This document shows positions 4,891 through 7,756 of a stretch of DNA of 64,000 bases, piece after piece. Every line of letters begins with the position of its first letter. The stretch's first letter is position 1. Made by a program: the position numbers and the translations under genes. Origin of the DNA: an uncultured Candidatus Saccharibacteria bacterium (lineage in GTDB: Bacteria > Patescibacteriota > Saccharimonadia > Saccharimonadales > Saccharimonadaceae); the NCBI GenBank assembly GCA_946408595.1, contig CAMJSX010000003.1, positions 32,613 to 96,612 of the forward strand, given 5' to 3'. A model generated the notes under the pieces. That model worked only from the letters and a program-made list of their open reading frames with translations, did not search any database and was not told the DNA's origin.

Positions 4891-5905
4891 GCTTAGTTAG
4901 CTCATGAATTAGGTCGTCAATGTCACCATCCATCACCGCAGGAATATTCGAACGAGAGTAATGAATACGGTGGTCAGTCACGCGGTCTTGCGGGAAATTA
5001 TAGGTACGAATTTTTTCGCTTCTATCACCGGTGCCAATCAGAGATTTGCGGGCTTCGGAAGCAGATTTAAGCTCTTCTTCCTTCTTGCGTTCAAGAAGCC
5101 TTGAGCGGAGAATGTTCATGGCTTTAATACGGTTTTGTTGTTGTGAGCGCTCATCCTGCATCGCCACAACAAGACCCGTAGGTAAATGCGTAATTCTCAC
5201 AGCAGAGTCAGTCGTGTTAACACCCTGGCCACCATGCCCACCAGAACGATAAATATCGATGCGTAAATCTTCCGGATTAATCACCAAATCTTGTTCAGAA
5301 GCTTCAGGAAGAACAGCCACAGTAGCGGTAGAAGTATGAATCCGTCCTTGTGATTCGGTCACTGGTACACGTTGGACACGATGTACGCCACCTTCAAACT
5401 TTAGTTGGCCGTAGGCATTGTCGCCAGATATCTTAAAAATCACTTCCTTCATGCCACCAGCCTCATTCTCGTTTTGGGACATAAGCTCTGCTTTAAGACC
5501 ATGGTTTTCAGCATATTTTACATACATGCGGTAAAGCTCACCAGCAAATAAGGAAGCCTCGTCTCCACCAGCCCCAGCACGAATTTCGATAATCGCTGGT
5601 TTGTCATCCGCTGGATCACGGGGAATCAGGAGCTCTTCAAGTTCAGCCTGCATCGAATCAATAGATTCTTTCAAAGTTTTTACATCATCTCTGGCAATCT
5701 CACCAAGCTCTGGATCATTAACGAGTGATTCCGCCTCTTCAAGATTAGCCTTAGACTGAGTAATTTGAGCATCTAAATCAATAATCTGATGAAGCAGCGC
5801 CACACGCTTACTTTTACTGGCAAAATCAGAGTCAGAAAAAGCATCAGGACGAGCCAAAAACGCTTCCAGTTCATTTAGTTCATCTTTATATTTTTGTATA
5901 TCCAT
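4871..5905 (-). CDS. prfA: Peptide chain release factor 1
   Basis: GGQ region [25 protein letters not shown]; start set at internal Met (5905), 6 nt after a minus-strand TATAAT. Confidence 0.95.
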
Positions 5906-5934
5906 GTTATAATTATAACATACTTTCATAATCT

Positions 5935-6011
5935 GGGGATTTAGCTCAGTTGGCTAGAGCGTACGATTCACATTCGTAAGGTCACAGGTTCGAGCCCTGT
6001 AATCCCCACCA
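5935..6011 (+). tRNA. tRNA-Val (anticodon CAC), CCA encoded
   Basis: GGGGATTTAGCTCAGTTGGCTAGAGCGTACGATTCACATTCGTAAGG...AATCCCCACCA cloverleaf. Confidence 0.93.
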
Positions 6012-6060
6012 TTCAGGTTATAAAATCATTTTCAACTATTTAGTAATCCGTAAATATCTG

Positions 6061-7029
6061 TTAAATCCCTTGCGATTTATTTTTTAATCGGTTGAGATTA
6101 GCGTTCCAGAAATTAAAGGCATCCTTATCTCCTAATATTTTTTCTTCTTTCATTTTTAACCTGTAAAATCTCTCTTTTTGTTCGTCATCCATATTATCCC
6201 AATCTTTCGGGGACACCTCGAGACGATTTCTTTCAACTACCATTTTTAATGCAGCACGATAGCCTCTTGCAGTCTCTTCGTCGCCCTCTTCCTGTGCTTT
6301 AATTAATTCCGCCTCAAGTTTACTTAATTGTTCTGCTGCTGGATGGTTAAAAGAATTTGGATTACTGGATGCTCTTTCAGCTTTTGTGATTGGAGCAGTA
6401 TCTACTTTTATGTCTACTGTGGAATACCCGTCTTTTTTAAAGGTGGAAGAATCAACATTTATATTCATATTGATCATCTCTAAGCCATGTTGCTTGAGTC
6501 TGCGCCCCAGAAGTGCTCTACCAAGGTCTCCCTTATTACCGATAAACATATCAAATTTCGAATTAATTAGGCTGTCATTTCCTATTGATTGGTGGTAAGC
6601 GCCATTATTGACTAGGTTTTTCAGAAGTTTTCCTTCGGCGTACTCGGTGTCCTCGTTCTTAAAACCGTACCTATCCATTATCTTGTCTACATAATAGTCT
6701 GGCCCTTTGTCAACAAATCTATCGCCAAGCATTTGGGCTTGTTCGTCACGGAGATTTTTAGCTTCGTTGAACAAAAACCTTGATGTTTTCACTCTAAGGA
6801 CTGTATCCTCATCAGATTCTTCTTGGCCAGTTTCTCTTGAATATATTTTTCCGTTCTTAATTACAAATTTTTGGGTATCATTCAAAACATCGGAAGGGGA
6901 AGTCAGTTCCGTTTCATAACCTTCAGAATGTTTTTCACCACTAAAAGGAATATCTTTCAACCCGTCCCATCCTGTCAATTTTAGGGTTTCAGATGCTTGT
7001 TCACCAGTATTTGATAATGTTTCTGTCAT
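6061..7029 (-). CDS. Hypothetical soluble charged protein
   Basis: Long ORF, no family recognised; lies between tRNA-Val and a 13-bp copy of its 3' end. Confidence 0.7.
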   Translation of the reverse strand: MTETLSNTGEQASETLKLTGWDGLKDIPFSGEKHSEGYETELTSPSDVLNDTQKFVIKNGKIYSRETGQEESDEDTVLRVKTSRFLFNEAKNLRDEQAQMLGDRFVDKGPDYYVDKIMDRYGFKNEDTEYAEGKLLKNLVNNGAYHQSIGNDSLINSKFDMFIGNKGDLGRALLGRRLKQHGLEMINMNINVDSSTFKKDGYSTVDIKVDTAPITKAERASSNPNSFNHPAAEQLSKLEAELIKAQEEGDEETARGYRAALKMVVERNRLEVSPKDWDNMDDEQKERFYRLKMKEEKILGDKDAFNFWNANLNRLKNKSQGI

Positions 7030-7135
7030 AAGTATACTTAAATTATATTATATCATTTGTTAGCAACCACTTGCCATTTTTCCTATAGCCTTTTAAAACC
7101 TGGCGAATTAATCCCCACCATGAAAGTTATTTGTT

Positions 7136-7164
7136 AGAAAAATCCCCCGACAACAGTCGGGGGA
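7136..7164 (-). terminator. Intrinsic terminator of the 7174-7494 gene
   Basis: TCCCCCGAC-TGTT-GTCGGGGGA followed by T-run on the minus strand. Confidence 0.85.
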
Positions 7165-7173
7165 TAAATGAGA

Positions 7174-7494
7174 TCAGGCGGCTGGCAGAAAGTATAATTG
7201 ATCACAGAGATTGACAATCTCTTCTTCACTGAGGTCAAAGTAAAATGCATTGAATTCCTCAGCTTCTTTAAAGATCTTCCCCTTAGAAAGGAGGGAAAGA
7301 TCCCAGCCACCAGAATCTTCTCCAGACGAAGAGCGACGCTCAAAATAGACGCCGTATCCGTTCGGATAGAAGACCTCAGCACTATATCTATTACTCATCC
7401 TGTGCAGAGAGTAAACGAAGTTCTGTTCAAAAGAAACAGCGCCTCTAGATATATGTGCAATGGTTTCGGGGGAAAGAGAGATAAGGTTCATCAT
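7174..7494 (-). CDS. Small hypothetical protein (start MMNLISLSPETIAH)
   Basis: ORF with GAAAGG SD-like sequence before ATG at 7494, consensus promoter and terminator. Confidence 0.65.
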   Translation of the reverse strand: MMNLISLSPETIAHISRGAVSFEQNFVYSLHRMSNRYSAEVFYPNGYGVYFERRSSSGEDSGGWDLSLLSKGKIFKEAEEFNAFYFDLSEEEIVNLCDQLYFLPAA

Positions 7495-7677
7495 GGCGAT
7501 GACCTTTCTAACCGCGACCTTCGTGCAAAGCACTTATAGTCGTGAAAGCGGCACCCATTCTCTTTGAGATGGGCGGAACCTCGAGGGCCCTTTTCATCTG
7601 TTCACCAAATGCGCATATATATTAATATGCGCCACAACCTCTTTTTAATTTACTGATTCACACCTCAATGTGAATAT
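7495..7677 (-). promoter_or_regulatory. Long structured 5' leader of the 7174-7494 gene
   Basis: About 180 nt between predicted TSS and ATG with four inverted repeats. Confidence 0.5.
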
Positions 7678-7683
7678 AATATC

Positions 7684-7712
7684 ATTATAGCATACTTTAC
7701 AAAATTTGTCAA
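7684..7712 (-). promoter_or_regulatory. Consensus sigma70-type promoter TTGACA-N17-TATAAT
   Basis: Exact consensus on minus strand. Confidence 0.8.
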
Positions 7713-7756
7713 TAGTACAGCTTTGTTGTATTTTTTACATTTTTAGCATAAAAGTC

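Follow-up and report, generated by a model that had tools for sequence, protein, structure and literature searches.

The segment behind the tRNA-Val(CAC) gene of the window, by which we mean the whole 64,000-nucleotide stretch of DNA analyzed here, is very probably one worn copy of a family of one-gene, recombinase-less cassettes of ruminant-gut Saccharibacteria, found singly or in rows after the CCACCA of tRNA genes. With comparable confidence, we take this segment (Table 1) to be a decayed non-autonomous single-gene integrative cassette, of a kind shuffled among CCACCA-ending tRNA genes. More tentatively, and at somewhat less than even confidence, the family may represent a gene capture system that arose independently of integrons. 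In place of a single attI next to an integrase, any CCACCA-ending tRNA gene would then be a landing site, and a recombinase, possibly the host XerD or a further enzyme, would shuffle single-gene cassettes among some ten tRNA genes and also across species in two episymbiotic Saccharibacteria genera. All genomes compared here are metagenome assemblies (MAGs).

Table 1. Features of the tRNA-Val(CAC) locus in the window (positions are those of the window).
Feature	Position	Strand	Basis or remark
tRNA-Val(CAC), anchor	5935..6011	+	ARAGORN; Rfam tRNA, 70.5 bits
CCACCA core at the left junction	6006-6011		Last six bases of tRNA-Val(CAC)
Cassette (left end, one reversed gene, right end), 1109 bp	6012..7120		Alignment with homologous cassettes
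Left end, type A (TTCAGGTTATAAAAT...)	6012..6070	+	
Left-end arm repeat CTGTTAAATCCCT	6058-6070		
Cargo gene P0001, 322 aa	6061..7029	-	
Candidate -10 elements of the cassette promoter (TATAAT, two overlapping)	7042..7052	-	Read from the sequence
Right end TTAAAACCTGGCGAATTAATCCCCACCA, 28 nt	7093..7120	+	Recurring recombination site of the family
Segment absent from the examined relatives	7122..7726	.	Possibly a second decayed cassette
Strong terminator hairpin of the 119-aa ORF	7142-7165		
119-aa ORF inside the segment 7122-7726	7174-7533	-	

The boundaries of the segment are set by a 13-bp repeat, TAATCCCCACCAT, present in two exact copies at 6000-6012 and 7109-7121, just where an earlier note made from the sequence alone had placed them. 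These are the only exact copies in the whole 738-kb genome, and an extended 22-nt match between them reaches 86% identity. The same note had read the right copy as a duplicated tRNA 3′ end, and here the interpretation has to change: the right copy belongs to a conserved cassette end of 28 nt, of which it is the 3′ tip and which shares only CCACCA with most anchors. Relatives of the window cassette behind other tRNAs carry this same end with AATTAAGCCCCA[C/A]CA, which has no origin in their tRNA, and in alignments of the window with homologous cassettes behind tRNA-Val(UAC) and tRNA-Met, homology starts and stops exactly at CCACCA. The obligatory shared core of both boundaries is CCACCA; the TAATCC match beyond it in this species is partly fortuitous, and the GTTAT after the right repeat copy belongs to the flank. 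Between the repeats, the gene for the 322-aa protein is the only convincing ORF, as had been proposed, and no terminal inverted repeats were detected within 5800-7300.

Compared with the copy behind tRNA-Val(UAC), the window copy has lost 121 bp, hairpin region included, from the stretch that separates the first left-arm repeat from the second, which leaves its left end without the second arm repeat and the terminator hairpin. Its right arm is mutated as well, with TTTTAA in place of TGTTAA at 7091-7096. The tRNA-Val(UAC) copy terminates in CCCCAACA and sits behind a 17-nt duplication of the tRNA end, at most a few hundred bp downstream of its tRNA. Judging from these sequences, the window copy looks like a decayed cassette and is probably no longer mobile. 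The adjoining segment, which encodes the 119-aa ORF, is possibly a second decayed cassette that would have lost its right end.

The tRNA-Val locus has prfA on one side and, on the other, an anaerobic ribonucleotide reductase gene, presumably nrdD as named from its sequence; the distance from the tRNA to this gene ranges across the genus from 149 bp to more than 6 kb. A comparison of related genomes, as the earlier note had suggested, revealed both allelic states. Two genomes (G009 and G015) have an empty site, in which the native flank follows directly after CCACCA, while a third (G004) carries a 584-bp insert after the tRNA, ending in CCACCA and followed by the same native flank; these empty-site alleles come from other species of the genus than the window's. 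Together with the presence of the same cargo behind other tRNAs, these empty and precisely filled alleles strongly support the proposed site-specific insertion at the tRNA 3′ end. In several relatives, a sequence resembling the window's left end stands directly after the tRNA. Contigs often end at tRNA-Val (within ~160 nt of its 3′ end in G008:C46, G008:C19, G013:C19, G013:C16, G015:C13, and G020:C20), which is consistent with mixed alleles within populations. Copies of the tRNA 3′ end (17-26 nt, mostly with T-arm sequence) were also observed downstream of tRNA-Val in three genomes (G006, G007, and G012) and downstream of tRNA-Val(UAC) at one further locus (L186); these copies, downstream of the tRNA or beside cassettes, look like classical-island footprints mixed into cassette arrays.

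Synteny of the cargo gene with tRNA-Val in all relatives had been named as the finding that would speak against insertion. Instead, P0001 is absent from 59 relatives, 35 of them of the same genus, and present in six of 394 family genomes. A homology search of the protein, proposed in order to find it in phage or satellite contigs, turned up no relative in IMG/VR; what it did reveal is that the protein recurs as cassette cargo in other Saccharibacteria genomes, with 93% protein identity behind tRNA-Val(UAC) and about 67-69% identity behind tRNA-Met(CAU). Comparisons with Pfam, PHROGs, PADLOC, and PDB gave no convincing match, and the AlphaFold model is poor (pLDDT 63) and had no Foldseek match in PDB or BFVD. 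A 302-aa homologue with 55% identity lies outside any cassette at two loci (L353 and L354, in G566 and G561), in an ordinary chromosomal setting whose neighboring genes, named by sequence inspection, are an ABC-2-type transporter gene and a DUF1810-like ORF; this homologue could possibly be the source of the cassette gene.

The window cassette belongs to a genus-wide family that has conserved ends, forms tandem arrays, and uses about ten tRNA anchors; it is not the isolated remnant of a phage or satellite that the first reading had entertained. With up to two mismatches allowed, 53 of 99 same-genus genomes contain the conserved right-end site, GTTAAaaCCTGnnnAATTnnnnCCCCACCA, at a total of about 105 places, compared with a single occurrence of a reversed-pattern control. 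Its exact version occurs at 87 loci in a GTDB scan of 84,980 bacterial and archaeal species, where our own estimate of the chance expectation is ~0.2 matches; all 87 loci belong to Candidatus Saccharibacteria, nearly all of them in ruminant-gut MAGs. Across the 143 genera sampled from the order, the site is restricted to two members of one family, the window's genus and a second one. The recurring right-end motif marks, at three sites, the unit boundaries in a relative whose units stand in a row. A genome of the second genus (G334) has 18 sites and carries rows of four to five single-gene cassettes (contigs C13, C20, C26, and C18; loci L229, L231, L242, L249, and L275), arrays that by analogy recall a chromosomal super-integron.

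To describe the format of the family, we compiled a set of 143 non-redundant units, in which some intervals counted as one unit hold an additional older insertion (“other” left type, 30/143). Median cassette length is 1031 bp (n = 143; a few of the units >2 kb may include chromosomal genes), and 117 of the 143 cassettes contain exactly one gene of at least 100 aa. Genes of this size mostly point towards the tRNA (122/158). The unit is preceded by a tRNA in 96 cases and by another unit, i.e., in tandem, in the remaining 47; CCACCA stands immediately before the unit in 137 of the 143 and forms its last six bases in 132. Cargo is diverse, with about 100 distinct families across cassettes, represented by GNAT acetyltransferases, Nudix hydrolases, chloramphenicol acetyltransferase-like proteins, ABC-2 transporters, HD proteins, and a C5 methyltransferase. 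Searching all fetched loci with a recombinase profile identified no recombinase encoded in any cassette, which strongly supports the earlier suggestion of a passive cassette without an integrase.

The ends of these units have a shared anatomy. In 130 units the right end has TGTTAAaaCCTG at a distance of exactly 31 nt from its tip, and at the left end this repeat is found near +47 in 103 units and again near +125 to +145. Measured inwards from the cassette ends, TGTTAA repeats are at 18-31 nt on the right and at about 47 and 140 nt on the left. The two ends covary in type (A-r2, 54; B-r1, 42; crossed, 14); since the types pair, the ends therefore travel together. The left end contains a hairpin followed by a T-run, i.e., a terminator, in 113 of the 143 units (9 in shuffles), and 75 of 91 single-gene minus-strand cassettes have a TATAAT in the interval from the start codon to the right end (11.3 expected). 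A typical unit thus comes with a terminator for the tRNA as well as a promoter for its own gene.

Ten types of tRNA serve as anchors: Val-CAC, Val-UAC, Val-GAC, Phe, Met, Leu-CAA, Ile-GAU, Ile-UAU, Ala-CGC, and Ala-UGC. Nearly all tRNA-anchored cassettes (94/96) stand behind a tRNA ending in CCACCA, the two exceptions being single Met tRNAs that end in CTACCA and GCACCA. In the window genome, eight of the 33 listed tRNA genes end in CCACCA, and all eight are of anchor types. The tRNAs for Arg, Asn, Asp, Cys, Gln, Glu, Gly, His, Lys, Pro, Ser, Thr, and Trp end otherwise, and none of them is an anchor among the cassettes compiled. Where enough upstream sequence is available, sites lie, with few exceptions, behind a tRNA on the same strand, and in rare cases behind a GGTTC...CCACCA element on that strand; no anchor was recognized upstream of three loci (L167, L189, and L148), and some other tRNA-less sites are on contigs cut short. 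Four sites (L178:5423, L173:880 in the oriented locus, L162:4183, and L177:136) follow a GGTTC...(C)CACCA element, a short element that replaces the tRNA and in which GGTTC stands 29-30 nt before (C)CACCA; in two of these (L162 and L177), a -10-like box precedes a small hairpin ending in (C)CACCA. An Rfam search of these odd anchors returned no family, and their layout suggests possible tRNA-mimicking landing sites.

Evidence for movement comes from full-length units that are 92-98% identical and found behind different tRNAs. One pair of cassettes, behind tRNA-Val(CAC) and tRNA-Val(UAC), shares 97.7% identity over 1331 bp, and the corresponding values are 94.7% for a pair behind Ala-CGC and Val-CAC and 93% for a pair behind Phe and Val-CAC. 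The window's own cargo family is found behind three anchors (Val-CAC, Val-UAC, and Met-CAU). In a boundary test of 18 cassette pairs in different settings, identity was 0.79 and 0.91 just inside the two ends and 0.58 and 0.57 just outside, with a background of 0.52.

Based on this organization, we propose that a recombinase acting in trans would excise the cassette as a circle, which would be reinserted by strand exchange within the 6-bp CCACCA core; with an identical core on both sides, the tRNA would stay intact. A tyrosine integrase is the favored candidate for this role because direct-repeat arms flank the 6-bp core. Given their position and conservation, the direct repeats TGTTAAnnCCTG may be the arm-type binding sites of such a heterobivalent enzyme; the right end holds one of them, 31 nt inwards, and the left arm holds two, near +47 and +140. 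The left-end terminator behind the tRNA and the gene's own promoter would leave tRNA expression intact and allow the cargo to be expressed anywhere. The net effect would be an integron-like store of exchangeable genes, with the cell's CCACCA-ending tRNA genes as landing sites.

Explanations differ on the source of this recombinase. Searches for PF00589 (23, then 20 genomes) and PF00239, for arm motifs near integrases, and with the profile on fetched loci yielded no recombinase with a distribution matching that of the sites. A helper phage or plasmid of the same hosts may supply a heterobivalent tyrosine integrase, the cassettes being its minimal satellites; we give this a little under an even chance. 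It would account for the attP-like layout, with direct-repeat arms on both sides of the 6-bp core, and other integrases do occur sporadically in these genomes, including a 369-aa protein whose sequence reads as having an apparent N-terminal arm-binding region. However, no cassette-type ends lie within 1.5 kb of the integrases checked, and no right-end site, cassette end, or attP was found in the viral contigs of IMG/VR. The host's single XerD-like recombinase could instead move the cassettes as Xer-exploiting elements (IMEXs), with no helper element needed. This protein, XerD-like by sequence, is the sole PF00589 protein in the window genome and in at least 11 site-rich genomes, and the arm repeat ATCTGTTAAAT resembles a XerD half-site by comparison with the E. 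coli dif (TTATGTTAAAT). Still, we consider it unlikely that XerD is responsible: the cassette boundaries are at CCACCA, outside the TGTTAA repeats, and cassettes are found in only two of 143 genera of the order despite XerD being presumably near-universal. A dif pattern search stayed at background level and identified no dif site for the genus.

The remaining explanations appear much less probable. Resolvase-domain proteins of about 400-600 aa are encoded in 13 of 20 genomes, and nine of ten fetched serine recombinase loci have a tRNA within the 1.5-kb flank, raising the question of whether this large serine recombinase family also serves the cassettes. These genes are, however, associated with Leu-GAG, Glu, Lys, Ser, and Gln tRNAs without overlap with the CCACCA set, they are absent from seven of the 20 site-bearing genomes, and direct-repeat arms far from the core are unlike symmetric serine attP sites, which makes their involvement quite improbable. 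That the segment is a classical tRNA-Val integrase island shrunk to a remnant, with the 13-bp repeat as att duplication, would fit the sharing of this repeat with the tRNA end, the decay of the window copy, and the true tRNA-fragment duplications at the locus in some relatives; yet more than 50 genomes show the same end and the same one-gene units of 1 kb, at ten tRNA types, and the right end has no tRNA origin, so we place almost no weight on this origin. Equally hard to credit is an origin without site-specific recombination, either by homologous recombination of tRNA loci with one another or by ordinary gene flux in which insertions behind tRNAs are selected: tRNA 3′ flanks do tolerate insertions, but this would not predict exact CCACCA boundaries, paired end types, strict orientation, and homology at background beyond the boundary.

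Among known systems, the closest working principle, by analogy, is that of integron cassettes and of CALINs, i.e., attC cassette arrays without an integrase (PMC11389934). Shared features include one gene per cassette, tandem arrays, cassettes common to several arrays, and, if the mechanism proposed above holds, an integrase provided in trans (PMC11389934), along with GNAT-, Nudix-, CAT-, and methylase-like cargo. Membership fails, however, on the recombination point and on promoterless genes. Whereas integrons recombine at GTTRRRY in a folded attC, both cassette-to-cassette and tRNA-to-cassette switches in Saccharibacteria are at the tRNA 3′ CCACCA; and whereas cassette genes are promoterless by the integron definition (PMC1382264), Saccharibacteria cassettes bring their own promoter (the TATAAT upstream in 75/91) and terminator and have ~ten alternative landing sites per genome. 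No IntI is encoded inside the cassettes, and the only PF00589 protein of the window genome is XerD-like, but a donor elsewhere may supply one.

The same mixture of likeness and difference holds for other mobile elements. As in the tRNA islands of the Islander set (PMC4383910), insertion is at the tRNA 3′ side, the tRNA is restored, tandem arrays form, and empty and filled alleles exist. But islands carry an integrase and a tRNA fragment, and their crossover is in the anticodon loop, T loop, or T/acceptor junction (PMC4383910), whereas the cassettes measure about 1 kb, contain one gene and no integrase gene, cross over at the CCA tail, have no displaced tRNA fragment at the far end nor need one beyond CCACCA, and use many tRNAs for one family. 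CIMEs, which are cis-mobilizable elements between the attL and attR of an ICE or IME (PMC5704250), likewise lack their own recombinase, have recombination sites on their flanks, and grow by tandem accretion; unlike CIMEs, the cassettes have no parent ICE in sight, a uniform one-gene format, and many targets. Phage satellites and tycheposons (named in PMC11389934) would share helper-dependent hitchhiking and, in some cases, tRNA targets, but are far larger, and the cassettes have no packaging, replication, or regulatory genes, with a single cargo gene in 117 of 143. Transposons and MITEs differ by their terminal inverted repeats and target-site duplication; no such inverted repeats were detected within 5800-7300, and insertion is fixed to CCACCA at tRNA ends. 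We found no published description of such cassettes in the literature searched, which covered subscription papers and preprints only in part.

Saccharibacteria genomes are about 0.7 Mb in size, and accessory-gene exchange among them is poorly documented. The cassettes described here provide a sequence-defined exchange system for this group with a precise rule (CCACCA), and raise the question of which recombinase can use ten different tRNA ends. They also suggest that integron-like gene banks have more than one origin and can do without a dedicated array locus, since tRNA genes can themselves provide the platform. The cassettes would escape standard island finders such as Islander, for which an integrase and a minimum of 2 kb are required (PMC4383910).

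Finally, the large serine recombinase genes found behind other tRNA genes in these genomes (L346, in G000:C2 at about 44.2-46 kb, behind Leu-GAG; L342-L350, behind Glu, Lys, Ser, and Gln elsewhere) apparently represent a second tRNA-targeting element family, on tRNAs without CCACCA; only tyrosine integrases were known to target tRNA genes (PMC4383910).
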